From NCBI GenBank assembly GCA_030407315.1, contig JALQPE010001697.1:1-64000 (forward strand): a stretch of 64,000 nucleotides of DNA, in the 5' to 3' direction. A program made the translations under genes and the position numbers. The stretch is from Asparagopsis taxiformis (lineage: Eukaryota > Rhodophyta > Florideophyceae > Bonnemaisoniales > Bonnemaisoniaceae). A model generated the notes under the pieces. The model saw nothing but the letters and a program-made list of their open reading frames with translations, made no database searches and was not told where the DNA came from. Shown in pieces: positions 17,601 through 63,174 of this stretch (within the stretch, counting starts at the first letter, position 1; every line of letters begins with the position of its first letter).

Positions 17601-18614
17601 GAAGAAATTCCTAACCAGGAATTGTTTCGGTACATTTTGGGAACGTGGGAGGGGGAGGAGGTGCACAAGGACCCTGGGAACCGGCAGCTGTGGAGTCCCA
17701 TTGTCAATACAGGGGACGATGAAACAGATGAGAAGAACCGGAATGAGGGGAGGGCTCGCTTCACGTCTACGCGCCACTGCCTGGTTGACTATGCCGAGAA
17801 CGATGAGACGCATATCGACCGGTTCAAGTTTGTGACGCGGCGAGCCCTGCTGGATGTGTGGTTGGGAATCCTTGTCCGGTTGATAGGGCTGGAAGATTGC
17901 GGCTTGCCGGGAGAAAAACTTGTCATGCCGGCATCTGGGGGACGGTTTCTGATAACGGGAAAGGGGTGTCCTCGGCAGGTCCCACACAATGATTTCCCTG
18001 TTCCTCCTCGCGACCGCAAAGATCAACTTCCGGGTTACTTTGTTATTGCCAACGGAGATGACCCATTCCCTATCTGGGTGTGTCCAGGGTCCCACAAGTA
18101 CGTCTTTTCCAAAGCGCTGGAATTAGATATGTACGCCAAGACGATGAAGCTGAGGAAGGTAATCGTTCCGCCACGTTCAGTATTCATCGGTCACGGCCAT
18201 GTACAACATGCCGGGGCAGGGCATGTCGACAGAGTTGTGTCACACACGACAACGAGGTATCACACGTATTTCAGGAATGCGTCGTATCCGATTCCCGACA
18301 ATGTTTCGTTTGGTTTCATCAGGCGGTTGGGATTCGAAGAAGAAGTAATCCCCAATGCTCCGCGCCGGTCTGCCAGGCAAAGTCAACCGGCACCTGTCAG
18401 TGTTCGCCACAAGACGGTTGTTCCCATCCCGGTCAAGAAAGATCGTGGGCCGAGGACAGGGCAGCTCGGACTCCTTCGGGTGAGGAAGGAAAATCCCTCA
18501 ACGGCTGAAGAGAACATCAGGAGAAATTCAACTCCACGGCTGCCGATAGAGCCTGTGCAAGGAGACTCTAGCTATAGCGAAAAAGAAGAGGAAGAACAAT
18601 TTTCCGACAGCTAG
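14683..18614 (+). CDS. ParB-like domain + 2OG-Fe(II) dioxygenase-like protein (frame-broken)
   Basis: The first frame (14683 to 16971) has a low-complexity N-terminus with repeated GGTKHPAR-like units. A ParB/Srx-like domain follows, with catalytic-type motif VIDGLHRLNAM near 15648-15680, and then a helical domain. The second frame ends at 18614 and is open from about 16553, well upstream of the first frame's stop. In the overlap the second frame reads RRRSQRLRSTG and then an acidic linker, matching the linker style of the sister gene at 54934-57614. One protein split by a frame change or short intron near 16550-16650 is therefore likely. The C-terminal domain has H-N-D (17985-17993) and a distal His in VQHAG (18207-18209), the 2-oxoglutarate/Fe(II) facial triad, plus TRYHTYF. 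Its role is inferred: oxidation of nucleic acid or a chromatin protein. Confidence 0.7.
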
Positions 18615-18872
18615 ATACTTCAAGAGCAACTACATTGGTAAACAATTATCTAGAATATAATCATCGCCTTCATCGCTCTCGTTCTATGAACCATTTCTAA
18701 TCAGCTTCCGTATCATGCTCTCAGACTCGTTTTTCCATTGAAATCCACGACGCCTCCCACACATCTCTTGACTAGGCTAGATAGTCTATGCCATAATTAG
18801 AAAAACAATTGGGCCTGAACGTGCTTCATCGCCTATTAGCTTCCGGTAATGGGTGGACGTGCACGATACACG
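18615..18872. other. 3' flank of the ParB-dioxygenase gene
   Basis: A/T-richer spacer between the stop codon and the next hairpin repeat. No gene is seen, and no polyadenylation signal can be assigned with confidence. Confidence 0.3.
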
Positions 18873-19340
18873 ATCAACCTGAAATGGACGTCCGGTGGAT
18901 GTCCAGCTCAGATGCATTGCTGGCCAGCCCAGAAATTCTACAATTTCGGGCAGAAAAAAATATTGCAAAAAACATCGATTTGGGCGGTCGATTGTGCCGT
19001 ACGGCACACCCCCATCTCAAAAACATGTTCACATGTGCATGTTTTTGAGAATAGCCCAAATTTTAATTCAAATCATGGTGTCTAATTTGGCCACAACGGC
19101 CCCAGGAACCGACCGCCGCCCCGAGTGGGGTTGTCACTGGCTTCTGTAAGCACTAACTGTAAGCCAAAATCGCGTCTCACGAAGGGTCGATTTCAGGCTC
19201 AATACGCCAGGGACAGGTCTTGGTCCTTGTTTCATCATGGTCCCGCCCCACTCTCTCACGACCAACCTGAAATGAACGTCCGGTAGATGTCCAGCTCGAT
19301 TGCACTGCTGGCCAGCCCAGAAATTCTAAAATTTCCGAAA
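18873..19340 (+). repeat. TR - spacer - truncated TR block right of the ParB-dioxygenase gene
   Basis: A full hairpin repeat (18873-19076) is followed by GGTGTCTAATTTGGCCACAA and a spacer closely like 13835-13960, then a truncated repeat (19267-19340). The block is a direct duplicate of 13671-14335 with many small differences, so the duplication is not recent. Confidence 0.65.
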
Positions 19341-21286: not shown

Positions 21287-21720
21287 TCAATACATCGACT
21301 TCCGCCAGGGGTAGATCAGATTCCAGTAAGGGAGAGTCTGAGTCATCTGAAGACTCAGATTTCTCGCCTTGTCGTACTGTACAATTGCTGTCATTCTGCT
21401 CAGCATATTCATCACTGTCATAAATTTGAGATAAACGCCGATAGCGGTCTTCCTCACGCTTGGCATGCTCAGCATATAGTTTGAACTTTTCTGCAGTAAT
21501 GTTTCAAGTTCTTGTCCCGTAAGCATCTCCACGTCAGCAAACCTGAGTCCAATATTCCGGCTTGCAACAGACTTCTTCACTGTACCCCGCACTATTTCAA
21601 TATGATTGAGCTCTGGATGGGCCACAGGAAGAAATAGAGTTTTGATTTCAAAGGAGCCATCTGAAAATTTGCAAGCACCTGTGCTTCGTATTTGCATCCT
21701 TGGTGGCACTTTCTGGTTTC
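21287..21720 (-). pseudogene. Tc1/mariner (IS630-like) DDE transposase relic, C-terminal part
   Basis: A 140-residue minus-strand frame contains LFLPVAHPELNHIEIVRGTV near its start. In the IS630-Tc1-mariner group this is the segment around the last catalytic acidic residue (pattern PxxxPELNxIExxW). The usual Trp is replaced here (VRG). The two upstream catalytic Asp regions are not readable in any frame above 21720, so this is a truncated fragment just outside the giant element. Confidence 0.55.
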
Positions 21721-28687: not shown

Positions 28688-29232
28688 TCAATTCAGGATT
28701 ACACTAGGGCCAGGTCCTGTAGTCCTTGAGTGGCGATTGGCGCGGGGCACTAGCTTGCCATGGTTGTGGCACCCCTTTCGCGCACTAACCCAAGTTTCCG
28801 GGGCTTCTGGTGTTGTATTCCGCAGCAAACGGAGATTGGATTTCACCTTACACGCGGCCATATTCCTATTTGCGAGGCCTCTGAAGCATTTCAGCTCTAC
28901 ACACTTCACAAACGGGCCCCTTCTGTACTCATATTTCGCATGGACTTGGAAGTAATCCCCTTCGGCCGCACAAGCTGCCTGAAAAGCTTCCACCGAAACA
29001 ACTTGTTCTCCAAATGCAAGAATATAGAAATATCCGATTCGAAACGTAGATTGTTCCGGCCACCGTCGGTAGTGTCAAGGAGTAGGGCTAAACGTACATT
29101 TAGAGTGATTAGATGTATAACATCCAAATCAGAGACACGAAGGCGGCGATTAGGAGCCAAATTTCGAGATACCGTCTCACACGTTGCCACCACACGCTTG
29201 AAGAATGCTAAAACAGCATCGGGGTCAATCAT
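28688..29232 (-). pseudogene. FAR1/WRKY-GCM1-like zinc-finger protein fragment
   Basis: Two overlapping minus-strand frames (29232-28906 and 28993-28688). The second reads EAFQAACAAEGDYFQVHAKY, then KCVELKC and, after a basic stretch, TWVSARKGCHNHGK. This Cys-Cys ... His-x-His arrangement ending in C-H-N-H matches the WRKY-GCM1/FAR1 zinc domain found in Mutator-like transposases and derived factors. The frame change near 28990 and the lack of a following DDE domain indicate a fragment. It lies directly downstream of the Ulp1-like gene on the same strand. Confidence 0.45.
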
Positions 29233-29983
29233 TTGTCATGAACGACATGTACATGTCATTTTCTTCTAAGTATTTCTTTTCCTCGATATATGTAAAAGTC
29301 GTCATGCCGCCAACGGTCAGTGCAAAATGACTGATAGTTGAAATAACGTAATAACCACAGCTATTCACGTCCGCTTGGGTCTTGTAATGTAGCACGTCGG
29401 TCATGTAGCTGGAGTTCATAATTTGCCACGTAGACCCAGTGATGGTATTTAAAACGGAATTCACCACTGATAACATGTCTCCGAAACCTTGTGGCGACTG
29501 TTGAACAAGGTTATCGGCGCAATAGATTCTCTCAGAACTGAAACCTGGGAGCAACGAGTCGTTACTCGACACAACGAGGCACCAATGACGTTCATTGGCC
29601 ATCAGAATTAGTACCGTACGGGTATCACTGCAACGTAGAAGTGGACTGGTACGGTCCACAAGGCCAGACAAGATGTTTTCTCTTAACGTCTTGTCTGCCT
29701 GCGTAGCGGCACTGATGAACTTGACTGATGTCGACGGGGGGACGACCACAGTGCCCAATGGAAAGTCCATTTGTGACAGGGCACCCAATAAGATGTGATC
29801 ATCCATCATGTGATCATTCCTCACTTGAAGTATCCAATCAGGAACGACATCGTTCGCGTTCCGTGCGCTGTCACTACTCTTGAAGATTTTCTCCACGTAT
29901 TGACGGATATATTCGTTCTCCGTGTCGACCCCAAGCGATTGGAGTCGGCGTGTAGTGAGTGACAGCGATGGGGTTCGGGACAT
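29225..29983 (-). CDS. Ulp1-like SUMO/ubiquitin-like cysteine protease (C48)
   Basis: An intact 252-residue frame starting at an ATG (29983). The catalytic order of the C48/Ulp1 fold is visible: His in NERHWCLVV (about residue 131), Asp in YCADNL (about residue 152), then Gln and Cys in TQADVNSCGYYV (about residues 204-211). The length equals a bare catalytic domain. Stand-alone Ulp1 genes are a known cargo of Mutator-like and KDZ-type transposons, and a FAR1-like fragment follows on the same strand. The domain call is secure on motifs. Its role in an element is inference. Confidence 0.75.
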   Translation of the reverse strand: MSRTPSLSLTTRRLQSLGVDTENEYIRQYVEKIFKSSDSARNANDVVPDWILQVRNDHMMDDHILLGALSQMDFPLGTVVVPPSTSVKFISAATQADKTLRENILSGLVDRTSPLLRCSDTRTVLILMANERHWCLVVSSNDSLLPGFSSERIYCADNLVQQSPQGFGDMLSVVNSVLNTITGSTWQIMNSSYMTDVLHYKTQADVNSCGYYVISTISHFALTVGGMTTFTYIEEKKYLEENDMYMSFMTND

Positions 29984-31735: not shown

Positions 31736-32165
31736 ATTAAATGATCTTTTCTAAGAGCTGAAAGAGACTTTGCGGGGTGTGGTGAGGACCGTTCAAGGTC
31801 ATCTGCTCCAGTGATCTCCGGTACTTACTTCCAACCAAGCAAAGATATCGTGTTGCTCAATTCATGCGCGAAGCCTATTAATCTTCCGCAGGCATCCGCT
31901 ACCTCTGTAACATTAAGTTTCCACTAGAAAAACCCTCTCTTACAATCCCTTTCTATGCATAATCCCTTTTTAATGATTCACCCTTTGTTCTACGTATGCA
32001 TTACAATTCTAGATCTTTCTACCCATTACTCGCTACTCTACTCAATACGATTCATTTCCTTGCTCTCTCAGAACCCATTCCCCACTAAGATGGTCCCGAT
32101 GTTGCCCTTCGCTTTGCGGTCCCTTTCACGCTTCCTCATGCGTCGGGGTTTCGCACGCTTATCCT
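31736..32165. other. spacer, nothing recognised
   Basis: No gene is called. The stretch ends at the CACTA-type terminus at 32166. Confidence 0.3.
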
Positions 32166-32720
32166 CACTACTGTGTTGAAAAGGGGGCCTCAGACAGTAC
32201 GGTGAGACAGGGTTTTTTACTGTCTGAGACAGTAAAAAACAGTATGCGGAAAGTTCAAATTAATGCCACACTTGGAGACAGTGATTTGCACTGTCTGGCA
32301 GACAGTACGGAACACAGTCTGCAGATAGTAAACAACACTGTCTCACCGAACTGTCTGAGGCAGTGAATGGAGACAGTGAAAAATAATGATTTATTCAATA
32401 GTTGGATATGATGTAATGTACTGTACTGGGCAGTGTTGGCGGATAGTGTTTTGTATTGGCCAAGGCAACATGGCCGGATAGTGAAATACGTTGCCTGGGA
32501 CAACAGATGAAACAAGCACGGTGCACTGTCCCAGATAGGATGAGCAGAAAGTGCGCGGCCCTGCTGCAGGCAGTACCTGGAGACAGTAATTTTAACTGTC
32601 CTGGGCAGCACCTGGAGACAGTGATTTTCACTGTCCTGGGCAGCACCTGGAGATAGTAAAAGTAGTGTCCAGATATAGTAAATCCAGTGTCTGGGAGTGG
32701 TGGATGAGATGGAGCGTCAT
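32166..32720 (+). mobile_element. CACTA-type left end with ACTGTCTG subterminal repeats
   Basis: It begins CACTACTGTGTTGAAAAG, then GGGGGCCTCAGACAGTAC, followed by many alternating CTGTCTGAGACAGTAAA-type motifs up to about 32700. The end pairs with the inverted copy finishing at 54769 (three mismatches in the outer 43 by eye). CACTA ends plus short subterminal repeats in both orientations are the hallmark of CACTA/EnSpm elements. No transposase lies in 32-55 kb, so any mobilisation would be in trans. Confidence 0.65.
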
Positions 32721-33347
32721 GCTGTGGTGGGCATCTTTTTGGGGTAGAGGGAGGCAGTTCTAGTGCTATGAGGATGGGGAATGGACAGTATCTACGTGGG
32801 AATGAACACAATTGTACGGCTAGGAATTTTTATTTCGTAGTGACTAAGAGCTAGAGAGAGGTACAAGCGGTAGGATAGGTAGCAATCTAAGAGGGTGTAA
32901 TATGGGAACCTTCACTCTGGATTTGTTTATTTGCGCAGGCTACATTGAGAGTAAACTATCCCTATGTTAAAACTGCTACTACAACTAACACTATTCTGAC
33001 GAGTAAAACTAAAACTACTAGAAAAGTCTACAAATCTATCAACTGATTGAGCTGTATGAATAAGCTAGGAAATGAAGAGAAGAAGAAAAAATGATGTTGT
33101 GAAAGGAAACAAGTTGGTGACGTTGAATTGGAGTGGGAAATTGATAGTGACCGGGAGACTAACGTACCTTAACGAATACCATTGCATCCCAAATCTAAAT
33201 ATGTATTCACAGGCAGAGCAGCAAAAATGGAGAAGGAGTGAGAGAGAAAGATGAATGAAAGGAGAATTAGAAAACTCACGGACTAAAAACCTGAGAAAGA
33301 GAAAATGAATATAATACTGGGTTAGTGGCGTGAAATGTGGAGACGTA

Positions 33348-33868
33348 TCATGTACACTGCTCCGGAAGCGTAATTATTGATGCTTTGTTTTCCGATGGAT
33401 ATGGTGATGGAAACAGGGATTTCCAGAATCTGTCGTTTAAGCAGCACTCTGCGGGTGGAAAAGACGTGTAGGAGAACAATAGAGGGATAATTTTGAAACA
33501 GAGCGGTGCGATGGGAGGCCCAGAAAGACGATGAATAGGCTGCGAATTACGCTTGGAAGCACATGATCTGGCAGAACAGGCGCACATTATCGTATGTTCT
33601 ACCTTCTTTTTGGTCTAGAATTACGTCATCACTACAGAAATATAGGAAAACACTAGCATATGGGGCCTACAGGAAAGGGGGAGGGGAAGAGTAAGAAAAT
33701 TGGCGCACTTTCCTGGACGAGGAGTCCGCGCTTCCAGTGATGATGTGGATGGTATATATCGATGAAGTCATTGTATGCTCCGAGCACACTTGGCAGGCAT
33801 TCAAAGCGGGCCACGTGGATGTGGGTGGCTAGGAAACAGCAGTGTCGAAGAATTTTTATTATTTTCAT
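33348..33868 (-). CDS. two small frames conserved in both arms
   Basis: 33868-33653 (71 residues, beginning MKIIKILRHCCFL) and 33587-33348 (79 residues, beginning MCACSARSCASKRNSQP) recur at 52879-53094 and 53162-53428. The first aligns without gaps over its full length apart from one near-indel change. They could be exons of one small gene transcribed away from the ParB-dioxygenase gene, or simply unbroken sequence in a young duplicate. No family is recognised. Confidence 0.3.
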
Positions 33869-34300
33869 GTTGCAAGCGAGCAGTGAGTCTGCATTGCAAT
33901 ATATAAATGTATGCTAATTTAATATATCAGACCGAGTACGATTAAACGAGACATCGTGTTTTCACCTTGTGAATAGGGCCGAGAATATGGTAGAGTATAC
34001 GAGTAGGAAATACGTGTATGAGAAAATCAGATTCAGTATTAGTGCCTAGAGTATCACCGCGTAATAAAAGTAAATGGATACGTCTTGGTCAGGTTTGCGT
34101 TTAGAGAATGCGATACAAGATAACAAAACGATTTTGAGTAGGTCCAGCCCGGATAAAATAGTAATCATTCTGCATAAAGCAATAAGCATAGGACAAAGCA
34201 TTGTGGTGAACCAGTTCATTGGATCGAATGAAAGCCTGGAAAGGTTTCATAACGGTTAAAAGTAGTACTGTATTGAGATAGTAGTCATGTCGTAGAAGTT

Positions 34301-35104: not shown

Positions 35105-38100
35105 ATGGGAGACAATAGTATCATGAATACTACAGCGGAGAAGAGCAATTCTCCTTCTGGTGAAGAGAAAAGCATCACTATTGCTCAGTACAGCTCTTCT
35201 AAAGTGCAAGTTGATCCTCGCAAAGTGAAGTTTCCGACAGTGACCTCCCGTTTGGTGCGACCGGGTCGTGTAAACGAACTGGCCAGCATTTTCATGGATA
35301 GAGGTTTCTCTACCACTGGAACTATGATTAAAGTCTGCAAAATGGAAGATAACGAAGGAGACGAGTTTTACTGCATCGACGGCTCTCATCGCATAGCTGC
35401 TCTGCAACTATGCCTGGAGAAGTACTCAGGAAAGAACAGGGATTCCTTGGAATTGGTTTGGGTACAACAGTTGATTGCGCCGAACGGGCGTCTAATTTTC
35501 GATGCGCTGGAGGTTCTGAAACTGTCTCTCGAAGCCAATATACAAACTCACGATGTCGCTTCTGTGAGCATTGCCGACAATGTCTGTGCGGTCATAGAGT
35601 TTCTCAGGTTTTCCAACCAGATGGATCTTCCTGTTGTCCGGCTTATTCTATTCTGAAAGAAGTGAGCTATATTCTGCCGTCCGACAGGAACCGTTCGGAG
35701 AACTCGTATAGGCAGTACATCAACATTGCGAAGGGGTTCAATCGCACAGACAGCGTTGCTTTCGTGTACTGGAGCTCTATCCCTAGCGTTTACAATGCTT
35801 TGGATAGGAACAGAGAAATCGAGGATGCAAGAACCGAGGGAAGAGATCCGGACCTTTCTCGAATTGACTCTGCCGATATGTACGGGTGTGTGCTCGATCT
35901 TGTCAATAACGTAATATTCCGCAATGGCACGGACGGACGCGGGACGCGCGATAAGGAGTGGTTCCAGTGGTTTGTGCTCAAGATGACAGCGTCGTGGACA
36001 AGGATGAGGAGGAAGAGAGGACTTGTCAGAAATATCGGAAGCGGAAGCCCGTTCACGATGCGCACTTGTCTACTGGCTCTGTTGGCCATCTATGATATGG
36101 CAGAGGTCGTCCGCAAGTGGTTGAACTCTGCAACGATGGAGGAATTCGTGCGAACGGATTTGGCAGCAGAAAACGCGAAGGAGGTCGGGGATAATGATCA
36201 TCGCATTGGAGAGCGCATTGTATTCATCCTTGTCGACTTTCATGACGACGTGGTAGACAGAAGCAGTCTGAGAACCAAGAACGGGATGTTTACAAACAGT
36301 TTTTACGACAAACTGGAATATGCTACCGGGAAAAAGGCAATGCAGGAGACGAAAGCGGAGGAGGAGAGGGAACGGAATCGCATGAACCCCGGAGAAATAG
36401 AAAAAGCACTTGTTGCTGGCGCCAAAGCAGAAGAGGAAGAAGCACCTACTGCCGCAGAACAGGGAAATAATTCTACAGAGAAGGAAACGGTGGAAACTCC
36501 TGGTCCTGTTCAAGCAGAAGAAGGAGTATCTGCCGAAGCCCAAGTAGAGCAGGAAGTTTCTGCTGTTGTGGAGGAAGAACAGGAAATTACTCCAAATGTG
36601 GTGGCAGAAGAAGTGATTCCTGCTTTCGCAACGAAAGCAATAGAAGAGGAACCTCTGAGCACCCCGAAAGAAGCAGAAGACCGTCCTGCCGCAGAAAAAG
36701 AGGTAGGACAGGAACGTCCTGCTACGCGTCTTGCAGCAGCTGAGAAGAGGGAAGCAGAACGTCTTGCTGTTCTCCAAAAAGAACAGGAACGTCTTTCAGC
36801 TTCAAGGGCAGAGCGGGAAAGGCGTGCCAGGGATAATTCGCCGGGAAGGATTGTCAGAGAAGATCATCCTCAGGGAAGGAAACAAAGCGGCGATACGCAA
36901 AGTCTGGATATCAACTTGGACAATAGTGGTCGCATGGACATAGACACGCCTGGACAACAAGCTGGAGATGCGCAGAACCGCTCTGTGATATTGAAACTTC
37001 GAATCAGGACACCAGAAACTAACAGCACTAGCCTGGCCGAAGTGGACAAGGAGAATTCGGGAAGAAGCAGGAGTTCTGGTGGAAGCGGCGATGAAAACGA
37101 GTCCAGGTTGGATAAGAAGCGAAGAAGGGAAGATACTAGCGCGAAGTTTTCTGAGCCCAATACGCCGGATGACAACATTGAGATTGGGCCTCCCCGGGAA
37201 AAGAAGAGTAGAGTCAATGCAAGAAAACGAACGACTGGAGAAGCACCACTCTTCACTGACGAGCAAGAAAACTCCCTTCCAGACCGCACATTCGCAGAGG
37301 AGATACCTGAGAAGCTGCCTTTATGCGTTCCTTCCAACTCGAGAATGAAGTATTATATCACAGAAGAAGACATTGATACAATCCGGACGGAGATAATGGA
37401 AGCAGCTGCAGGCTACTCTACTTTGGTATGTCCCCTCGGTTCTTGTGAAAGCCAACAATACTTCAGGTACCAGAGAAGAATGATCGACGAGCTTGGCTAC
37501 GTGGTGTTGCAAGACATTTTCAGTTCTACTACAGTGGGAGCAGCTACGCACGAGTTATTCACACAGATGGTCAGCACATTCCAAGGTACTACAAGTGGCT
37601 CAAGTGCAAGTCAGAAGAACCCGTGGAAACCACTTCGACCGAAAGACAGCACTGGTGTATTCAAGACGGACCGGAAAAGCATCTGCGATGACCTTGAGCA
37701 AGAAAGCGCGCGGCAGTACAGGAACAAGCTGATTCTGGAGCTAGGTAAGGCGATTTGTGCGGAGAACCTGAAGCTCGGGTTTGGAAGAGAAGAAGCAGTG
37801 GTCTTTCCAGAAACGGGTCTTCGTCTGATTTTGACCGCAGAAGGTAGTCAGGAGCAACTTATGCATACCGATGTTCCCGTCCGTGAGGGAACTGGAACTG
37901 GTCCTCTCAACTCGCCATCATATTTCATGATGGCTGCTGGTGCGGATGGCTTCATCATTCGTATCGACAAGTTCAGCCATGTGTGCCTAAGTCATCCAGC
38001 GAAAGAAAAGTACCGCGTGCCAGTGACGAACGTGCGCATCCCACCGTATTCCCTGCTTGTATGCCGAACGGACGTGTATCACGGAGGAATGGGATTCGCG

Positions 38101-38223
38101 GAGGGTCGTTCTTCGGTGAGGTACCAGCATCCTATCCGGTCCCATCTATCACTGCGAACTTCCAGGGAGAAGTTGCTACAGCCTCCCTTCAATGTCAACT
38201 ACTGGGAGCGTTTAGATATCTGA
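35105..38223 (+). CDS. ParB-like domain + 2OG-Fe(II) dioxygenase-like protein, second copy (one frame break)
   Basis: The start is taken as the ATG at 35105 (MGDNSIM). Upstream the frame only offers TTG. The first frame carries the ParB-like domain: VTSRLVRPGRVNELASIF and then CIDGSHRIAALQL (35372-35410). Near 35640 the protein moves to the next frame, open to 38223, through one base change or a short intron. It continues YRQYINIAKGF...VYWSSIP, a block shared with the gene at 54934-57614. A long charged Glu/Ala/Lys coiled linker follows, then MKYYITEEDIDTIRTEI, and a C-terminal dioxygenase with H-T-D at 37864-37872 and distal His in DVYHGG (38080-38082). Function is inferred: iron-dependent oxidation of an unknown DNA or chromatin substrate. 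Confidence 0.7.
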
Positions 38224-49720: not shown

Positions 49721-50130
49721 GTCCCCCTCCCACCTAGGGAAGGGTGAGCAAGGAATTGGGAAGTCAGGAACATGGCTCAGCAGAACGTTTGTACGGCTGT
49801 GAGTGGCTTCCAGGAGCATTCTGTGTCATGTGTTATCTCAGCAACGTCTCTTATAGTCGAACCTCACGGGTTGTCAAGGTCTAAAACTAGTCCCCCCTAC
49901 GGTCTAGCTAGTGAAATCATGTAAAGTTGTAGACTAATACAAAAATGTAGCAATCAATAGGCTTAGTAGCACTAAACTATGACATGAAGGTCAGATGTAT
50001 AGATGAAAATAGAAAGGTGGGCTAAGCGAATAATGTTGAGATGAGAAAGACAGAACTTCATAGCAGGGAACAATAGCATAGGTTTTAATACTTCTCGTAT
50101 GCTATCTATTGCTCCTGTCATACTTTTAAT
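49721..50130. other. spacer related to 57620-57900
   Basis: The inverted sequence of 49850-50130 (for example CTACGGTCTAGCTAGT and CAGGGAACAATAGCATAGG) recurs after the gene ending at 57614. This shows that the pseudogene at 50135-52450 and that gene share their 3' flanks. No gene is seen here. Confidence 0.45.
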
Positions 50131-50134
50131 ATTC

Positions 50135-52450
50135 GACGGTGTGGATGTGGTCCGTGAGGACGTCCTTCTCAGTCTTCAAGTAGATGTGGCCGCGCGTGGG
50201 CAGACCATAGACTAAATTCTGCTCCCACAGGAAGATCTCCTCACCTGAAGCCGACCCCGTAATGGTAAAGGTCACCGCGATCAACTAAGACGGAATAGGG
50301 TGGCACATAAAAGTGGTTAACGGGAACCTTCCACATGTCGGCGTCCGTATGGACCAGGCATACATGACTATAAGGTGCAGCTACTATAAAGAACCCATCG
50401 GATCCGCTCGACATCATGAAATAGGATGGGGATTGGGTAGGTCCGACTCCTCAAAATTGGGATACTCAGAAGTCCGTGTGCCCATCCTGGTCCGCAGCCC
50501 CATCTGTTTTAAGAAGCAGCCGTAATCCTGTCTTCGGGAAAAAGACAGGATCCTCACCCTCCATTCCCAACTTCAAGAAATCCGCACAAACACCAAGAGC
50601 AAGCTCTGCCACCAACTTGTTCCTGTACATATCCAAATTCCCCTCCTCCAGCTTGTCGCACAATTCACACCGCGGCAGGGGGAGTCGCCCACGACCACCA
50701 TCTATGCGGTCCTTCGCAGCACCCACGTTGTGGATGAAATGCCACGGCGAAGGATCAAAACCGGGCTTGGCGAAATCTGGGGGCTCGTCCTGTGGTTTCC
50801 TGTCTTCATAATCAGAATCAGACTGCTGGGAGGGTTTCTGTGGCTTTTCAACCTCCTCAACCAGCTGGAACTGTCGAGAAAAGTGACTGAAGAGGTCATG
50901 CGTCGCGCTACCAGCCGTGGACGACTGCAAGAGGCCTTCCACAACAACCACCCCCATGTTGTCCAGCAACGCCGCTTCACCGCAAAGTACTATTCCACCA
51001 CCGAGTCCTCAGCACCTGGCGATGCAGCTGCCAGGAATGCTGCCGCCTTTATTTCCGCCCGCACCGTCTCTACCGTCGTAATTTCCATGTAGTACTTCAT
51101 CGGGCTACCAGACGCAATTGCGCTGGGGAGAACGGCGGCCACATTCTCATCGACGATACTGTCGGGAATAGGATTTTCATGGGCGTCGTCGAACTGGAGA
51201 ATCGGCTCCCGAGAACGTCCTCTGGAAGCCGACTTGGATTTCTTTGACGACGACTTTGATGAAGTCTCACTGAGCTTCCTCTTTTAAAAGTACCAAATTT
51301 GGTAGAGGGCTCGGGCGTCGCAGAAGCGGTTTCCCAGTTGCGCTTCCCAAGGATGGAGCTTTTACCCGCATCCTTGGGTGCGCTCTCCAGCTCGACGACC
51401 TGAACAGGGCTCGCACCACCCGCCGTCGCTGTTCCACCACGACCGGAACGACTCTCTTTCAGGCAGGTACTCCTTTTGGGCATCACTTTCCCAGAAGTTT
51501 CCACTCCGGACGATGCAGACACGACAGGGGTAGTGGCAGAAACAGAGGCAGCCTCGGAATAGCTGGAAGAATCTAATTGAGGTGGTACTACCTAAATTGG
51601 ATTCTTCAAAGGCAAAGGAATGGAGGATGAAGGGATGGTCAGGGAAATGGAAGGGGAAGGGGAAGGGATGGCGGAATCATGACCACATGTGACTGGGAGC
51701 GCAGCATGTGGGATGTGTGGGTCCACCACGTAAAATTGTTTCCGCATTTACATGTCGCGGTAGCCAGTTACGCGCAGGAGCATTTTCCTGGCGTCCTTTC
51801 AAAACATAGACTTCCGATTGGGAAAGATGTTCTCAAACTTGGAGCCATTGGGAGGGCCTTCCTTGGGATGTAAGTCCGCTCAGAACCCCTTCTTGGGCAC
51901 CATCAGCGCAAAAACTTCGACAACGCGTGAGTGAATGTCGAAGCTCTTGCTCGGGTCACCCACGCTGGGAATGGAGCCATCCAGCATCCTCAACACATCC
52001 GAAACGTTCCAATACTCGGCCACCTCCTTCACGTACCCGAAGATTTCCAACAAACCAGCAATCCATTCCTGCCCAATGGTACCAACCGAGTTCGGTTTCA
52101 GCCCGGCCCACCAACGGCTACAAGTGTAGTACGCCGTCATCTCGAGGTTGACACAATTTTGGACGTCCGGAGCACCCCTAAACGATCCGTTGAACAAAAA
52201 TTTCACCGTACACCCAGCCAGATTCTCCGTCGAAGAGAACTGCACGAACTCTGGCCTGTTCGGAATAGTTTTCTGCAGCCAAATCCGTTTTCAAGAATTG
52301 CTCCATCGTTGCAGACTTCTTCAACCACTAGCCAACGACCTCTGATATTCACTTTGCGAGGTTCAACTTGCACTTCAGACGAACTATACTGGGCAATATT
52401 GATGCATGTCTCGCTTGCTGAAGGAGATTTACTCTTTTCCGCTACTTCTC
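50135..52450 (-). pseudogene. mosaic ParB-dioxygenase family pseudogene
   Basis: Read on the minus strand. The 5' part (52450-52360) matches the start of the gene at 35105 (KSPSASETCINIAQYSSSEV versus its SITIAQYSSSKV), but the ATG is lost and a stop is present. It then jumps to sequence like 36110-36180 of that gene. From about 52260 it switches to sequence like 55110-57614 of the other gene, at high similarity. Several frame breaks occur (near 51880, 51600, 51290 and 51090), and the dioxygenase end (50969-50466 and below) is also shifted. It is an inverted, recombined and broken copy, not a working gene. Confidence 0.75.
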
Positions 52451-52878
52451 CGCTATAGTGCAGAATTATATTTCTCCGCCACTAAATTCAACCATTAAGA
52501 AACCTTTCCTGGCTTTCATTCGATCCAATGAACTGTTTCACCACAATGATTTGTCCTATGCTCATTACTTTATGCACAATGATTGCTATTTCATCCGGGC
52601 TCGACCTACTCAATATCGTTTTGCTATCTTGTATCGCATTCCCTAAACACCATCCTGGCCAAGACGTATCCACTTCCGTTTGTTACGCAGTGATGCTCTA
52701 AGCACTAATACTGAATCTGATTTTCTCATGCACGTAGTTCCTACTCGTATACTCTACCATATTCTCGGCCCTATTCACAAGGTGAAAACACGATGTCTCG
52801 TTGAATCGTACTCGGTGTGATATCTTAAATTAGGATACATTTTTATATTGCAATGCAGACTCACTGCTCGCTTGAAAC

Positions 52879-53428
52879 ATGAAAATTATAAAAATTCTTC
52901 GACACTGCTGTTTCCTAACCGCCACCATCCACGTGGCCCGCTTTGACTGCCTGCCAAGTGTACTCGGAGCATACAATGACGTTATCGATATATACCATCC
53001 ACATCATCACTGGAAGCGCGGACTCCTCGTCCAGGAAAGTGCGCCATTTTTCTTACTCTTCACCTCCGCCTGTCCTGTAGGCCCCATATGCTAGTGTTTT
53101 TCCTATATTTCTGTAGTGATGACGTCATTCTAGACAATAAAAGGCGGTAGAAGATACGATAATGTGCGCCTCCTCTGCCAGATCATGTGCTTCCAAGCGT
53201 AATTCGCAGCCTAGGTATCGTTTTTCTGGGCCTCCCATCGCACCGCTCCGTTTCAAACTCATCCCTCTATTGTTCTCCTACACGTCATTTCCGCCCGTAG
53301 AGTACTACTTAAACGAAAGATTCTGGAAATCCCTGTTTCCATCTTCATATCCGTCGGAAACAAAGCAACAACCCTGGCCGTGGAAGCCGTATAGATCATC
53401 TAAACTGCTTCCAAAGCGTAAGTTTTAG
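52879..53428 (+). CDS. two small frames, right-arm copies
   Basis: 52879-53094 (71 residues) and 53162-53428 (88 residues) match the left-arm frames on the opposite strand. The second diverges after SLFPSSYPSE, where the hairpin insertion enters. No family is recognised; see the left-arm entry for alternatives. Confidence 0.3.
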
Positions 53429-53482
53429 ATCATCAATACGGCTTCCAAGGCCAAAGTTGTTGCTTTGTCTCCGACGGATATG
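53346..53482. repeat. 137-bp imperfect hairpin inserted in the right arm
   Basis: It begins CATATCCGTCGG and ends CCGACGGATATG. Inner arms contain CAAAGCAACAAC and GTTGTTGCTTTG, then GGAAGCCGTAT and ATACGGCTTCC. The left arm has only the left-hand edge of this sequence, so this is a small insertion or a local inverted duplication after the arms split. Confidence 0.6.
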
Positions 53483-54168
53483 AACCATGATGGTACGTTT
53501 CCACAACTCACGCCACTAACCCAGTTTTCTATTCGTTTTCTCTTTCTCAGGTTTCCAGTCGGTGAGTGTTCCACTTCTACTTTCATTTATCTTTCTCTCT
53601 TACCACTTCTCCACTAATTTTCTTTTCTGCCTGTGAGTACATATCTCAATTTGGGATGCAATGGTATTTGTTAAGGTACGTTAGTCTCCTAATCACCATC
53701 AATTTCCCTCTCCAATTCAACGTCACTAACTTGTTTCCTTTCTATACATCATTTTTTCTTCTTCTCTTCATTTCCTAGCTTATTCATGCAGCTCAATCAG
53801 TTGATAGATTTCTAGACTTTTCTAGTAGTTTTAGTTTTACTCGTCGGAATAGTGTTAGTTGTAGTAGCATTTTTAACATAGGGATTGTTTATTCTCAATG
53901 TAGCCTGCGCAAATAAACAAATCCAGAGTGAAGCTTCCCATATCGCACCCTCTTAGATTGCTACCTATCCTACCGCGTATACCTCTCGCTAGCTCATAGT
54001 CACTACGAAATAAAAATTCCTAGCCGTACTATTCTGTCCATTCCCATATGAATACCGTCCATGCCCCATCCTCATAGCGCTAGAACTGCCTTCCTCTACC
54101 CCAGAAAGATGCCCACGACAGCGTGACGCTCCATCTCATCCACCACTCCCAGACACCGAATTTTACTA

Positions 54169-54769
54169 TATCAGGACACTACTTTTACTGTCTCCAGGTG
54201 CTACCCAGGGCAGCACGAAATACTGTCTCCAGGTGCTGCCCAGGACAGCACAAAGTACTATCTCCAGGTGCTGCCCAGGGCAGCACAAAGTACTGTCTAC
54301 AGGTGCTGCCCAGGGCAGCACAAAGTACTGTCTACAGGTGCTGCCCAGGGCAGCACGAAATACTGTCTACAGGTACTGCCCAGGGCAGCAAAAGTACTGT
54401 CTCCAGGTACTGCCCAGGACAGTGAAAATCCAGGTATTGTCCCAGGCAGCGTAACTATCCGGCCATACTGCCTGGCCAATACAAAACACTATCCGCCAAC
54501 ACTGCCCAGTACAGTAAATTACATCATATCCAACTATTGAATAAATCATTAATTTTTACTGTCTCCATTCACTGCCTCAGACAGTACTGTGAGACAGTGT
54601 TTTTTACTGTCTGCAGACAGTGTTCCGTACTGTCTGCCAGACAGTGCAAATCACTGTCTCCAAGTGTGGCATTAATTTTCATTTGCCGCATAGTGATTTT
54701 TACTGTCTCAGACAGTAAAAATCACTGTCTCGCAGTACTGTCTGAGGCCCCCTTTTCAACACCGTAGTG
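54169..54769 (-). mobile_element. CACTA-type right end with subterminal repeats
   Basis: Tandem ACTGTCTCCAGGTGCTGCCC units (about 54180-54420), then paired ACTGTCTG/CAGACAGT motifs, ending GGCCCCCTTTTCAACACCGTAGTG at 54769. It mirrors the 32166 end. The flanking triplets (CCT before 32166, ATG after 54769) do not match. Confidence 0.65.
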
Positions 54770-54933
54770 ATGAATCTTAATTTTACTGTCTCCAGACCGT
54801 GTTCTCGAGTACTGTCTGCAGACAGTGCACTGTCTCCAAGTGTGGCATTAATTTTCTTTTGTGATTTTTACTGTCCGAGAAGTATTTTCACTGTCTCGCA
54901 CCCACTGTCTGAGGTAGTTTCAACACCGTAGTG
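54770..54933 (-). mobile_element. second CACTA-type right end in tandem
   Basis: Contains GAGTACTGTCTGCAGACAGT and ends TTTCAACACCGTAGTG at 54933. It directly abuts the truncated gene that follows. With 40423 it would define a 14.5-kb insertion. Confidence 0.5.
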
Positions 54934-57614: not shown

Positions 57615-58084
57615 CATATCAGAAGTATTAAAACCTATACTACTGTTCCCTGCTATAAAGTTCTGTCTTTCTCATCTCAACATTGTTACCTTAGCCCATT
57701 TTTCAGTTCTCATCTATACATCTGTCCTTCATCTCATAGTTTAGTGCTACTCAGCAGATTGCTTGCTACTTTTTAATATTAGTCTACAACGTTATATGAT
57801 TTTACTAGCTAGGCCGTAGGGGGAGACTAGTTTCAACCCTTGACAACGCGCAGATTTCGACTACGAGAGCCGTCACTGTGATAAATTATTTGTAGAATTT
57901 TCGTCTATCTTCCCACCTACACTAGGCTACCTATATATATACAGGGTATAACCTGAACAGAGACCACGTGAGGTAAAATACTCCTGAGAGCTGCTCACAG
58001 CCGTACAGACCTTTGCTGAGCAATTTACCCGACTTCAAACTTCGCTTCTTACCTTTACCAGGATGAGAGAAGGACGAAACTCCC
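57615..58084. other. 3' flank, related to 49721-50130
   Basis: Inverted duplicate of the flank of the mosaic pseudogene. Nothing else is recognised. Confidence 0.35.
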
Positions 58085-58440
58085 TGCTGCTTACAGCCGA
58101 AGCCGTTTACCAGGGTTCCTTACAGCAAAGTCATCGTAACGATGACTTTGCTGTAAGGAACCGTTTCCTTGCAGTGGCCGAAGAATTTTTTACCGGGTAA
58201 AAAATCAGCAAGAAATTTTACCGGGTAAAAAATTGTGGCCGCTGTAATGTTTTTCTTTCTTACAGCAAAGTCATCGTTACGATGACTTTGCTGTAAGAAA
58301 ACGTTTCATTACAGCGGCCACAATTTTTTTACCCGGTAAAGAAATCATGGCTGCTGTAATGATTTGTTTTCTTACAGCAAAGTCATCGTAACGATGACTT
58401 TGCTGTCAGCACCCCGCCGGAACTGCCAAAGCTGTAAGCA
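58085..58440. repeat. nested palindrome cluster 7
   Basis: 37-bp palindromes near 58119, 58260 and 58377 alternate with TTTTACCGGGTAAAA cores. Outer arms are GCTTACAGCCGAAGCCGTTT and GCTGTAAGC. Confidence 0.85.
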
Positions 58441-58964
58441 GTCTGGCTTCACCCTCTCCCCCATTTCTCTACTCCGCCTTCAGCATCCCAGCCTCTCTGG
58501 TGACGACTGACGCCTTTCGTTTCCCCCCTCACGCCCCCTCTCGCAATGAAATACTCGTCTATTACCACGATAGGCTACTCGTACTGCCGCCTTAATTTTC
58601 CTCTACACACACCCTCCCATCCGTCTCTTCCGTACTACGATCTTAGGCTATCCTACCTTACGATTATAGTTGTATAGTGAGTAGCTAGAGTCCTACTTAT
58701 TGACGACTATAGTGCACCGGAACCGGCGCCGGTTCCCGCCCGGGCGGGTTGAATATATATTTTATGCCGTGAGGCACAGGTACCATATGGTCGCTGTGGC
58801 TCACGGCACAAGGAGTAGATTTTGCGACCAACAGCCGTCCAAACCATCCTCCCGTGATGTTCCCTACTTCACACTTCGCTTCTCATGTGAGACAGCAGGG
58901 AGTTTCGTCCTTCTCCCATCTTGGTAAAGGTACCTTTACCAAGAAGGGAGAAGGACGAAACTCC
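58441..58964. repeat. dispersed repeat unit between clusters 7 and 8
   Basis: Contains the hairpin at about 58904-58962: GTTTCGTCCTTCTCCC with GGGAGAAGGACGAAAC, centred on GGTAAAGGTACCTTTACC. It also has CCGGCGCCGG-type palindromes near 58720. No gene is seen. Confidence 0.55.
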
Positions 58965-59432
58965 CTGCTGCTTACAGCTGAAGCCGTTTACCAGGGTTCC
59001 TTACAGCAAAGTCATCGTTACGATGACTTTGCTGTAAGAAAACAAATCATTACAGCAGCCACGATTTCTTTACCGGGTAAAAAAATTGTGGCCGCTGTAA
59101 TGAAACGTTTTCTTACAGCAAAGTCATCGTAACGATGACTTTGCTGTAAGGAACCGTTTCCTTGCAGTGGCCAAAGAATTTTTTACCGGGTAAAAAATCA
59201 GCAAGAAATTTTACCGGGTAAAAAATTGTGGCCGCTGTAATGTTTTGCTTTCTTACAGCAAAGTCATCGTTACGATGACTTTGCTGTAAGAAAACGTTTC
59301 ATTACAGCGGCCACAATTTTTTTACCCGGTAAAGAAATCATGGCTGCTGTAATGATTTGTTTTCTTACAGCAAAGTCATCGTAACGATGACTTTGCTGTC
59401 AGCATCCCCGGTAAACGGCCCGCACTGTAATG
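58965..59432. repeat. nested palindrome cluster 8
   Basis: 37-bp palindromes near 59000, 59113, 59253 and 59370 with the same inner layers. The right part of the cluster (59150-59400) is nearly identical to 58155-58410 of cluster 7, implying a recent duplication. Confidence 0.85.
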
Positions 59433-59706
59433 GGGTGACTGCTTCTCCTACATCGCTCTGTTACTGGTGTTCTACATGCTGCGTTGCTACACAATTTCGC
59501 ACTCACATCTTTCTAGTTTCTCTCCCTTTCGTATCCATAGGTATAGCAGTTGAAAAGTGGATAGTTTGCACTCCAGGCCGCAGATGCCTTCCTGCAGTCA
59601 TGTCACGATTGTTGTAGTGTAGTCTATAATATCTAGCGCTCTTGGAAGATGATGCACAGTCTATTGTCTCTGTCAATGCGTGTTTACTCAAATCTATCAA
59701 AGTAGC
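59433..59706. other. 3' flank of the ParB-methyltransferase-SET gene
   Basis: Short spacer with no recognised feature. Confidence 0.3.
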
Positions 59707-62700
59707 TCAGTTAGCTGGCCAATATTTTCTACCATAGTCAGCAAATATCTCCTCATCAGCTTCAACGTCTCTGGTCAGAACGACCTTGACAGCATGGGGA
59801 TTCTTGATATTCGAAGCAAAGTCCGGTTTGTCTATGGCATCGCCTTGTCGAAACTCGGCTGACTGTGTTCGACTCACCTCGGTCGCTTTCTCCGTTCCGT
59901 CAATGACCCGACAATCATTGAGGTAGCTGGTACAATTATAGACCGCTGGAACGAGCCAGACCTTCCGAACAGGTGCACCCCTCCCTATGTACGTGGTTTC
60001 CAATTCCATGTTGTAGTCCTGGAACCTCTGTCCTGTGCACCCAAATCCTTCCGGGCCGTACATCACTGATCTCTGCGGTTCCGAGTCTCGAATCTTCGCA
60101 TAGAAAATCGTCCCGTTGTACCAGCCAATGACCGTCCCCTTCTTCAGTTTCTTCGCCGCGAATACGCCAAACCCACCACCTCTTACCTCCGATTGCGAAA
60201 CATAGACACCGTAGAATGCGGCATCAGCAGCCAGAATCGCGTCCGGGTCTATGCTCCAAAACGAGTGCATGTCCTCGGCCGGCCACTGGTCCATAGGCAC
60301 CCCGCTCAATCTGTGAAGCATAGAACCGTCCTTCTTCATTGACGCAACGAACACAAGCAGATGGTTCGGCAATGCTGTCACAGCAGGTAAACCTTCTGGT
60401 GCATCTGAGATGTGCTTCTGACGAAGCCTTGGAGCTTTTCCTGTGACCGGTACCGACTCGTCCCCAAGAATACTCTCCACCTCACGCTGCAAGATCCCCC
60501 CATATCGCCCGGCTTTCACCTCACTGACGAAAGCATGCAGTATCCACTCCTGCGATGCATCGTGGCACCTTTTTTCCTTCTCACACCCAATGAACCGACG
60601 ATACGTACCATCCCTCAACGTCATACACGCTATGGCTGTGCTGTATGTTCCCGAGAAGAAATCCATCACGATATCGTTCTGCTTCGAAAATCGTTCCAGA
60701 AGCTCACGAAGAGTGGTCAACGCCTTCTGCTCATGGCGCAGTCGGTTGTTCTGCCCATCGTATTGAGCTTCACCAGCCGACAACCTCGGAACGTTGTCAA
60801 TCGCGTTGGTGAACCCAGGGTGCCTCGATATGTCCGGATTGTGCAACCTGTAATCCACCATATCGTATGCAGCCATACCCTTCCCCCGCTTATACGCATG
60901 GATAACGAAATCGTGCATATTATGCAGTGTGCACGTTTTCGTCGATGGATTGGACGTAAAGCTGTGTGGTCGGCGAGATAGCACGACTGGAACACTGTCC
61001 ACAATCATCTTGCCAGGCTCGGCATTTCTGATTGCATCCATCCATGCCACGAGTTGGCGCACGCTGGAATAGATTAGAGCATGACCGCCAGGCCGAAGAA
61101 CTCGAACTATTTCACACGCAACACTCGCCAACTCTTCCGGCTCCAGAATATCGTACTCCGAGTTTTCTCTGCCGCCTTCCCGCCTCGTGTTGAATGGAGG
61201 ATCAGTGAGCACAAGCTGAACACTGTCCTCCAACACGCCATCTTCCAGGAAACTAATTTTGTCCTCCACCTCTTTGGCTACATCAGTGGCGTCACAATTC
61301 ACAGTGTGAATGTAACGCCCCATCACAGCTTCCAGCTTGGTGACATATTCCGGCTTGGATTCCTTTCCGACGTCAACGAGCGGTGCTTCTGTAGGCGATA
61401 CAGTGTCAACCTCCATAGCGTCATCCTCGGCCGCACCTTCTCTTGTTGCTGTTTCGCTAGCAACCGCCGCATTATCGTCCTCTCCACCACCGCGCTCCAG
61501 CCTAGCCTTCTTCCTCTGTGGCTCCAGACTATCCTCTTCTATATCCTCGCTGCCATTGTTTGGCACTGCTGCGGATATTTCCATCTGCGCAGGTGCACCT
61601 TCAAGGATGCCAGGCTCGGGCGTATCCTCAAGACTGTGCAACTCATCCATGGTCAGAGGAAGCTTTCGTTGCTCTCGGGTTCGCAATAACCAAGCCTTCA
61701 GCCTCCTCTGACCATCCAGGGCATGAGACGTGTTCAACTTGGCTCGCATGAACGAGTTCAATCCGAACTTGTCAGGAGTGTCGAAAAGCAAGGCTCGAAG
61801 TCTCTGCATCAGCTGACCACGCTCGGCGAACACATTCACCTCAGTGACACATTGGCGTATCGACAGCAGGAAGGCGCTTGTCAATGATCGCAGCCTTGCA
61901 TCCACAGCCACTGGAAGGTCGGCACAGAACCCGTTTTCACTGTCTACAGTTTTCGGGACAATGGTCAGGTTTTTCCGATGCTCCTCGACCGCGCAGCCAT
62001 CAGACCGATTCGGGAGTGACCTGAAGCAAAGGCTCGCAGGATCGAATACCATGAACGGCCAGCACATCGATTCAACATCCTCATACCCCAACACTCTTGC
62101 CCCGGTATCCCACGCAGCTAACACACGGTCGACAACAAATCCAAGCTGGTTGGCTTGCGCACTGGATGTTGCAATTCCAACCATTCCACCACCACCAATG
62201 GCCCCGGATGTGGCTCTGGCCCGCCTAGATGGCGCACTGCCCATCTCCTTACTGCGAATAGCCAAGATACACTGGCACATCATAACCATCAGCCTCCTGA
62301 ACCGCTTCTGGCTAGCCTGCAAAGAATCTTGCATGTCGGATGTAGCGCCGTCTAGAAAGTACCTGCTCGAAAGCAGTTCGCGGTTCAGTGGAGAGGACAA
62401 TTCTCCGCGGGGTGTCTTGCCAAACATTTCGACGGCACGAGAACTAGTCACCCCCACCTGTTTCGGAAACTCAACCATCCTCGGAGAATCACCCATCTCT
62501 GCATTGAGTCCCCATGCATGACAAAACATTTGCCACAGACGCAAATCAATCGCACTCGAATCTTCTGCTCGGTGATACGGCCGAAGCACAGCCAGGATAG
62601 ACATGCATGAGCTGTACTGCGGTTTACCACTCAGGCTTGAAGCAATTTGGCCGCTTGGATCGCAGGACTTGATCCAGCCCAACACATCGGCCATCCTCAC

Positions 62701-63174
62701 AGACGAAATATGAGCGTACTTGTCCTTTCCTTTTTGGACCCAGTACTCGTCTCTGAGATCAACGGCGATCATCAGATACTCAACAAACATCATGCGCCTT
62801 TGCAGGCCTGCAATGTCGTTGGATGTCGTCGCTCTCACACGGTCCAGCACAACAGCAGTACTGCTGTTGGTGTCCGCCACGATAGACTCTTCTCGCATAG
62901 GAATCGTAACGCCAGGAGGAAAGACGCCCTTCTCCATTCCACGTACAATTGCCATGCAGCGGTGCGCTCCATCCAATATCTCCAGAACGCCTTCTCGAAA
63001 CCTGCCAGTCACGGGATGAGCTGTGTCATAACCGCTGTTGCGAATGCTCTCCATGAGCGCTTCCACATGACTTGCATCAACATCGCGAATCGATACGAAT
63101 TTGCTGACTTGATTGGGGTCGATGAACACCCATCCGTCGTGCTTTTCACCGTGATTGTGGAACGTTCCTTCCAT
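59707..63174 (-). CDS. ParB-like + DNA methyltransferase + SET domain fusion
   Basis: An intact frame of about 1155 residues. The first in-frame ATG is at 63174; the frame extends to a TTG at 63183. Domain order: a ParB-like module at residues about 15-80, with FVSIRDVDASHVEALMESI and then ILDGAHRCMAI (about 62944-62980); a long helical middle; an acidic linker near residue 560; a methyltransferase with motif IV DPPFN (about 61190-61206) before motif I DFFSGTYST (about 60638-60666), the beta-class order; and a C-terminal SET domain with GGGFGVF (about 60160-60182), SYLNDCR and EEIFADYGRKYW. By family knowledge it should bind DNA, methylate adenine N6 or cytosine N4, and methylate a lysine. 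The combination is not one I know as a named protein. It is convergent with 54934-57614. Confidence 0.82.
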   Translation of the reverse strand: MEGTFHNHGEKHDGWVFIDPNQVSKFVSIRDVDASHVEALMESIRNSGYDTAHPVTGRFREGVLEILDGAHRCMAIVRGMEKGVFPPGVTIPMREESIVADTNSSTAVVLDRVRATTSNDIAGLQRRMMFVEYLMIAVDLRDEYWVQKGKDKYAHISSVRMADVLGWIKSCDPSGQIASSLSGKPQYSSCMSILAVLRPYHRAEDSSAIDLRLWQMFCHAWGLNAEMGDSPRMVEFPKQVGVTSSRAVEMFGKTPRGELSSPLNRELLSSRYFLDGATSDMQDSLQASQKRFRRLMVMMCQCILAIRSKEMGSAPSRRARATSGAIGGGGMVGIATSSAQANQLGFVVDRVLAAWDTGARVLGYEDVESMCWPFMVFDPASLCFRSLPNRSDGCAVEEHRKNLTIVPKTVDSENGFCADLPVAVDARLRSLTSAFLLSIRQCVTEVNVFAERGQLMQRLRALLFDTPDKFGLNSFMRAKLNTSHALDGQRRLKAWLLRTREQRKLPLTMDELHSLEDTPEPGILEGAPAQMEISAAVPNNGSEDIEEDSLEPQRKKARLERGGGEDDNAAVASETATREGAAEDDAMEVDTVSPTEAPLVDVGKESKPEYVTKLEAVMGRYIHTVNCDATDVAKEVEDKISFLEDGVLEDSVQLVLTDPPFNTRREGGRENSEYDILEPEELASVACEIVRVLRPGGHALIYSSVRQLVAWMDAIRNAEPGKMIVDSVPVVLSRRPHSFTSNPSTKTCTLHNMHDFVIHAYKRGKGMAAYDMVDYRLHNPDISRHPGFTNAIDNVPRLSAGEAQYDGQNNRLRHEQKALTTLRELLERFSKQNDIVMDFFSGTYSTAIACMTLRDGTYRRFIGCEKEKRCHDASQEWILHAFVSEVKAGRYGGILQREVESILGDESVPVTGKAPRLRQKHISDAPEGLPAVTALPNHLLVFVASMKKDGSMLHRLSGVPMDQWPAEDMHSFWSIDPDAILAADAAFYGVYVSQSEVRGGGFGVFAAKKLKKGTVIGWYNGTIFYAKIRDSEPQRSVMYGPEGFGCTGQRFQDYNMELETTYIGRGAPVRKVWLVPAVYNCTSYLNDCRVIDGTEKATEVSRTQSAEFRQGDAIDKPDFASNIKNPHAVKVVLTRDVEADEEIFADYGRKYWPAN

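Follow-up and report, generated by a model that had tools for sequence, protein, structure and literature searches.

Does a eukaryote encode one protein in which a ParB-like domain is fused to a DNA amino-methyltransferase and to a SET domain, and what could such a protein be for? The question is raised by an open reading frame (ORF) at positions 59707 to 63174 of a 64,000-nucleotide stretch of contig JALQPE010001697.1 from the red alga Asparagopsis taxiformis. The whole stretch is called the window below and the product of the ORF is called P0008. The three-domain architecture of P0008 was found to be firm. On balance, and at slightly better than even confidence, P0008 is taken to be a real, conserved three-domain protein from a repeat-borne and probably selfish or mobile epigenetic gene family. 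The frame, the domain order, the conservation, a second gene pair, the sharing of ParB (by sequence) and the palindromes were observed; we infer every enzymatic activity, the targeting and the mobility.

Fusion gene and its conservation

The ORF was read on the reverse strand from a first ATG at 63174 to a stop at 59707 and encodes 1155 amino acids. Reading from an upstream TTG gives 1158 amino acids, and the Pfam residue numbers given below follow this longer reading. The gene and its parts were located as follows.

59707 to 63174, reverse strand: gene for the ParB-like/N6_N4 amino-methyltransferase/SET fusion P0008 (ORF, Pfam, relative P0010)
62863 to 63108, reverse strand: ParB-like domain, residues about 26-107, with LDGAHR (PHROG ParB-like families, phage tblastn)
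61624 to 62823, reverse strand: middle region, residues 121-520, 38% identical to P0010
61351 to 61623, reverse strand: low-complexity linker, residues 521-611, the least conserved part when compared with P0010
60550 to 61221, reverse strand: permuted (beta-class) N6/N4 amino-methyltransferase domain (Pfam, PDB profile search)
59731 to 60174, reverse strand: SET domain, with N-D in place of N-H (Pfam, PDB profile search)

The longest stop-free run in 30 mononucleotide shuffles of the window had a mean of 186 codons and a maximum of 248. A chance frame or mis-joined genes are excluded by these shuffles together with the same architecture in P0010. An earlier note on this DNA had claimed three motif sets in a single unbroken frame. 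The ORF lies where it was described and its domain order is kept in P0010, and all motifs of the note were found in P0008, namely LDGAHR, then LTDPPF before DFFSGT, and then GGGFG, YLNDC and DYGRKYW.

Relatives were searched for in about 5.8 billion protein clusters with limits on length and shared words; 7992 candidates were scored and 3 were returned. P0009 is the P0008 protein on another public contig, with 4 differences in 1155 amino acids. P0010 (1169 amino acids, from another contig) is 43% identical to P0008 over 99% and has the same domain order in one frame, and P0011 (953 amino acids, without ParB as listed) is 31% identical to P0008 over 46%. The identity between P0008 and P0010 was 57.6% for the methyltransferase, 55.0% for SET, 40.6% for ParB, 38.3% for the middle region and 21.5% for the linker (over residues 521-610), the methyltransferase and SET being the best kept parts. 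The motifs DPP[FY], FxGT, N-D and YG are all present in the four aligned methyltransferase-SET proteins (4/4). This comparison argues for selection on the intact fusion, because the putative catalytic parts are conserved at the distance separating P0008 from P0010, that is, at 43% overall identity.

The viral contigs searched with P0008 alone gave no relative. The profile search gave four viral and three genome loci, each matching a single domain only; ORFs were inspected at L001 (SET proteins) and at L002 and L005 (plain methyltransferases), and L003, L004, L006 and L007 were outside this inspection. In tblastn with full-length P0008, coverage reached 80% of the protein in none of the phage records. 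The methyltransferase of P0008 found 78 phage and 3882 plasmid records, each at less than 60% identity, the plasmid query being the methyltransferase segment only. Rfam and transfer RNA scans gave no match.

About 119 columns of the middle region of P0008 (roughly residues 288-408) align with P0011/P0002 at an hhalign probability of 97%. A middle region common to the methyltransferase-SET proteins and the dioxygenase-like proteins of the neighbourhood, which are described further below, was looked for and not found. The AlphaFold model of the fusion protein, built on a four-sequence alignment, had a mean predicted local distance difference test (pLDDT) score of 37.7, which is too low to read a fold.

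Domain assignment of P0008

A profile search of each segment, which the earlier note had proposed as a check, recovered the methyltransferase and SET domains in Pfam above their cut-offs; the ParB-like segment was missed by Pfam and recovered by PHROG. For the methyltransferase, Pfam N6_N4_Mtase (PF01555) covers residues 655-878 with an expectation value (E) of 2.3e-16 and 60.9 bits against a cut-off of 26.7, which was also passed by P0010, P0011 and P0001, the last being encoded at a second locus of the window. The catalytic DPP[YF] precedes the S-adenosylmethionine-binding FxGT in all four aligned proteins, and this order of DPPF or DPPY before F[SG]GT therefore places the domain in the permuted amino-methyltransferase class. 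The methyltransferase part of the four-sequence profile matched DpnA (3e-12), CcrM (7e-8), MboIIA (1e-7) and RsrI (7e-5) in PDB. It also matched two chains named DNA cytosine-N4 methyltransferase (E 0.0014 and 0.0017), which we take to be rotifer N4CMT. The single-sequence PDB search, made with no profile, gave DpnA at E 0.002, and the NCBIfam scan gave matches only below the family cut-offs. The DPPF/DPPY motif points to adenine as the target. By this rule, the DNA mark predicted for P0008 is likelier to be on N6 of adenine than on N4 of cytosine. The PF01555 domain has repeatedly evolved either adenine or cytosine specificity, which is not readable from the domain (PMC8885841).

For the C-terminal part, Pfam SET (PF00856) covers residues 1004-1151 with an E of 4.2e-6 and 27.6 bits against a cut-off of 22.4, also passed by P0010, P0011 and P0001. 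The SET part of the four-sequence profile matched EZH2 (2.6e-5), KMT5A/SETD8 and KMT2 in PDB, and the single-sequence search gave KMT5A at an E of only 0.013. The C-terminal [DH]YG tyrosine is present in all four proteins, as DYG in three of them and as HYG in P0001. By these matches P0008 is assigned to the SET superfamily, and no named histone methyltransferase family is claimed for it. The canonical SET motif is N-H-x-C; because N-D stands in P0008 where N-H is canonical, histone as the substrate of its SET domain is a guess. Overlapping tandem SET-like genes, both with N-D, were also seen at 10007-10630 and 10617-11264 of the phage-like contig L001, where the neighbour genes resemble PhoH and terminase by eye.

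The ParB-like domain of the earlier note was the weakest of the three, being upheld by PHROG and by tblastn against phages and lacking a match in Pfam and any meaningful one in PDB. The 127-residue ParB segment of P0008 matched five PHROG families of ParB-like partition proteins (E 5e-4, 0.027, 0.086, 0.13 and 0.18). The unannotated phrog_4272 was matched at E 3.5e-7 by this segment and at 1.6e-6 by P0010. The best PHROG ParB-like value with the whole P0008 was 0.003, and P0010 matched the first of the five families, phrog_1033, at 6e-5. The tblastn search of the segment in 50,697 phage records, with a limit of E 1, found 5 records. The best was a ParB-like protein of Leptospira phage vB_LalZ_80412-LE1 (E 4e-5). 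Leptospira phage LE1 was matched in two records (E 0.05, one annotated as a ParB N-terminal domain and the other not), and one Mycobacterium phage was also matched in two (E 0.9, annotated as ParB-like partition protein and DNA binding protein). The alignment of five ParB-like segments has nine columns that are the same in all five, among them the D, G, H and R of DGxHR; in P0008 the motif holds D68, G69, H71 and R72, the ParB/sulfiredoxin-type motif arginine. Six-frame translation of the window shows a hydrophobic residue followed by DGxHR at three places, all of them ParB positions, compared with 5 occurrences in total in 30 shuffled windows. The ParB assignment of the N-terminus is regarded as supported but distant.

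Neighbouring genes

A second methyltransferase-SET gene and the dioxygenase-like genes were located in the same window.

8842 to 12032, reverse strand: second methyltransferase-SET gene, P0002 then P0001 in two overlapping frames (Pfam, likeness to P0008)
14500 to 18614, forward strand: P0003, with the ParB-like motif IDGLHR, then dioxygenase-like P0004 in another frame; divergent from the gene at 8842 to 12032
35105 to 38223, forward strand: ParB-like ORF with IDGSHR (35105-35656), then dioxygenase-like P0006 (35410-38223) in another frame
49833 to 52269, reverse strand: broken, inverted copy of the P0005 gene in several frames, at 85-86% DNA identity
55032 to 57614, forward strand: gene of the dioxygenase-like P0005, in convergent orientation to the fusion gene

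The gene at 8842 to 12032 was matched in Pfam for the methyltransferase (1e-15) and for SET (5.6e-7), and P0001 is 24% identical to P0008 (E 2e-49). Among the dioxygenase-like proteins, P0004 is 31% identical to P0005 over 218 columns (E 2e-16) and P0006 is 34% identical to it. H-x-D, a later H and R are invariant in four of four such proteins. HxD...H...R is the pattern of Fe(II)/2-oxoglutarate dioxygenases, and on this pattern it is likely but unproven that the neighbour genes encode dioxygenase-like enzymes. Protein searches with the dioxygenase-like proteins gave P0012 and P0013, and then P0013 only; no phage or viral-contig relative of them was found.

In the Logan protein P0012, a single ORF carries the ParB-like motif IDGGHR and a C-terminal dioxygenase-like domain. 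A search with the ParB part of P0012 gave the ORF preceding P0006 at E 3e-24, and that ORF matches phrog_1033 at E 0.0099. The ParB segments of the methyltransferase-SET genes and of the dioxygenase-like genes were aligned locally by hhalign with a probability of 88% (E 2.9e-6). We infer that the ParB module is common to the methyltransferase-SET genes and their neighbours and has been shuffled among them, and such sharing suggests that both kinds of gene may belong to one pathway.

Introns were sought at the three frame switches of the neighbouring gene models with one simple donor/acceptor pattern of 40-120 nucleotides. Two of the three gave no candidate, and the two candidates at the third were rejected as they would leave 65-69 nucleotides against about 108 expected.

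Repeats and transposon setting

The repeats and the transposase of the window are listed below; strand is given only for the transposase ORF.

2752 to 5793, forward strand: Plavaka transposase ORF, 1013 amino acids (Pfam E 2.8e-24)
8410 to 19083: locus A repeat flanking both genes, with inverted copies at 8410-8647 and 18846-19083 that are 91% identical
38475 to 59401: 37-bp palindrome, found 24 times (20 exact copies and 4 with a single mismatch), never within the listed intact genes
57959 to 59438: palindrome and inverted-repeat cluster between the convergent 3' ends of P0005 and the fusion gene

The 64-kb window contains 50 perfect palindromes whose arms measure 9 or more, compared with 0-4 in each of ten windows simulated with a first-order model. 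Of the 50, 47 lie outside six listed gene stretches that take up 19,527 of the 64,000 bases, as do all 28 with arms of at least 15. No copy of the 37-bp palindrome is expected by chance. Its core is almost invariant and its flanks are variable, and no exact match of the 35-base core was found in the viral contigs. Clusters of copies directly follow the 3' end of P0006, that of P0005 and that of the broken P0005 copy, and the stretch that separates P0005 from the fusion gene is filled with them. The locus A repeat is distinct from this palindrome; it follows the 3' end of each of the two genes there and recurs in the upstream region that they share; the inverted repeat around locus A (91%) also occurs internally. 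Taking the palindromes as candidate ParB sites is a guess, and the near-invariant core of the 37-bp palindrome could also reflect recent spreading or conversion.

Two further repeats were seen beside the dioxygenase-like genes. A tandem array of a 35-bp unit, which holds a 19-bp palindrome, lies at 54186-54422 upstream of P0005, and a long inverted repeat in pieces at 32162-34266 and 52481-54773 (84-91% identical) lies near the 5' sides of these genes. The Pfam scan took in 18 of the 98 window ORFs of at least 100 amino acids. Matches below the cut-off were found on the reverse strand at 29225-29983 (Ulp1 peptidase, E 0.03) and 21287-21709 (DDE_3, E 0.012), and these are perhaps transposon remains.

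Proposed mechanism and alternative explanations

A mobile or selfish role is proposed because the fusion gene is accompanied by a second methyltransferase-SET locus, the dioxygenase-like genes, the palindromes and the transposon setting. The palindrome- and transposon-rich setting points to such a role over ordinary host chromatin marking. In the proposed mechanism, the ParB-like domain would be the part that binds DNA and aims the fusion protein. The bacterial- or phage-type amino-methyltransferase would write N6-methyladenine (6mA) or N4-methylcytosine (4mC) on DNA, and the SET domain would methylate lysine, either on histones or on a protein encoded by the element. The dioxygenase-like neighbours, paired with the same kind of ParB domain, may oxidise the marks. 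The element would write marks on its own copies and its partner would remove or change them, and host silencing could in this way be escaped or shaped.

Several observations weigh against this explanation. Neither gene pair was found to hold a transposase among the ORFs scanned (18 of 98), target-site duplications not having been sought. ParB was not found with P0001/P0002, with P0005 (nor just upstream of it) or with P0011. No PHROG ParB match was obtained for P0003 or P0012, and none in Pfam for P0003. When the ParB segments of the two kinds of gene were aligned globally, the hhalign probability was only 32%, and P0003 matched P0008 by BLAST at E 0.022. The dioxygenase-like domain had no sequence match in Pfam (including TET/JBP), PHROG, NCBIfam or PDB, and the AlphaFold model of a dioxygenase-like protein had a mean pLDDT of 34.8, too low to read a fold. 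Three neighbouring gene models switch frame, which marks some of them as decayed copies or as errors of assembly. In four of four proteins the SET motif reads N-D-x-R and not N-H-x-C, and the SET domain of P0011 is without GxG.

The alternative that survives best is that of a host chromatin gene, in which a domesticated ParB-methyltransferase would have gained SET and would join DNA and lysine writing, like rotifer N4CMT in silencing. The fusion ORF is long and intact and has a near-identical copy (4 of 1155 amino acids differ) on another public contig, and N4CMT is an earlier case of a bacterial amino-methyltransferase that has taken on a chromatin function (PMC8885841). However, two diverged methyltransferase-SET loci, several dioxygenase-like copies (one broken), a transposase and repeats all lie within 64 kb, and this explanation is considered unlikely.

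A self-addressed element is rather doubtful. Here the ParB-like domains would recognise the surrounding palindromes, and DNA and lysine marks would be written, and removed or converted by the ParB-dioxygenase, on the element's own copies only. If true, a transposon of a eukaryote would carry the counterpart of a modification system that is joined to partition-like addressing, and one polypeptide would write on both DNA and lysine.

The SET domain might also methylate the element's own proteins or another non-histone lysine in place of histones. The N-D motif is in line with this, as are the two N-D SET proteins on the phage-like contig L001, phages not being known to have chromatin of their own. 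The PDB profile matches to the SET part were, among the matches listed, mostly histone or lysine methyltransferases, and the probability of a non-histone substrate is put low. Lowest of all is the probability of a transposon relic with catalytically dead or decaying domains, whose long frame survived by luck: neighbouring relatives are frame-switched or broken and the SET motif is N-D, but the methyltransferase motifs stand in four of four proteins, and of all parts of P0008 and P0010, which are 43% identical overall, the enzyme domains are the most alike.

The repeat-borne, probably selfish or mobile epigenetic gene family is retained as the best explanation of P0008. Where eukaryotic genomes hold unusual 6mA or 4mC, genes of this type might be its source, and such a fusion would let the management of its own silencing by a mobile element be tested. 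If the palindromes were ParB binding sites, they would provide a new way to aim chromatin enzymes.

Comparison with known systems

The P0008 methyltransferase is like DpnA, CcrM, MboIIA and RsrI in profile match and motif order, whereas no match to these enzymes or to the phage and plasmid methylases spans the other domains of P0008, the plasmids having been searched with the methyltransferase segment only. The ParB-methylase Bce_0392 of Bacillus cereus, described as a nonspecific nicking enzyme (PMC5512222), fuses a ParB domain to an adenine methylase and is in this respect half of the P0008 fusion. It is bacterial, however, and the term SET is absent from the main text of that paper.

Plavaka transposons were described from fungi (Kojima 2025, PMC12730594). 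Taken by itself, the Plavaka transposase ORF of the window would suggest a fungal source for this DNA. Fungal DNA transposons of the Plavaka and KDZ types carry a TET/JBP dioxygenase that is thought to counter host DNA methylation (PMC12730594). These elements are like the window in the Plavaka setting and in what would be a transposon-borne dioxygenase; they differ in that ParB is absent from the main text of the same paper and that its available parts hold no N6/N4 methyltransferase-SET fusion. The likeness of the dioxygenase-like genes to transposon-borne TET/JBP enzymes is a lead only. SET is carried by DNA transposons in the HarbingerS and MuDR families of Phytophthora (PMC12730594) and is joined to a transposase in SETMAR (PMC8704517), and P0008 shares with them a SET methyltransferase in a DNA-transposon context. 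In those systems SET goes with the transposon or transposase, and no DNA methyltransferase is mentioned in the available parts of the two papers.

No ParB-methyltransferase-SET fusion was described in titles and the starts of abstracts among the literature matches listed, subscription papers being mostly outside this set. Judged by these literature matches, what is new is the union of a ParB-methyltransferase with SET. DNA methylation is usually linked to histone methylation through separate proteins, each reading the mark of the other, and N4CMT is one example. A DNA amino-methyltransferase and SET in one polypeptide would allow direct tests of the coupling of marks.

The bdelloid rotifer N4CMT, which is used in silencing, combines a bacterial N6_N4_MTase with a chromodomain as the reader of histone marks (PMC8885841). 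Like P0008, it is a eukaryotic, bacterial-type, permuted PF01555 enzyme with a chromatin-domain fusion and a link to transposons. ParB is absent from the main text of PMC8885841, and the two proteins would differ in the direction of the chromatin step, as the chromodomain of N4CMT reads histone marks whereas the SET domain of P0008 would write them.

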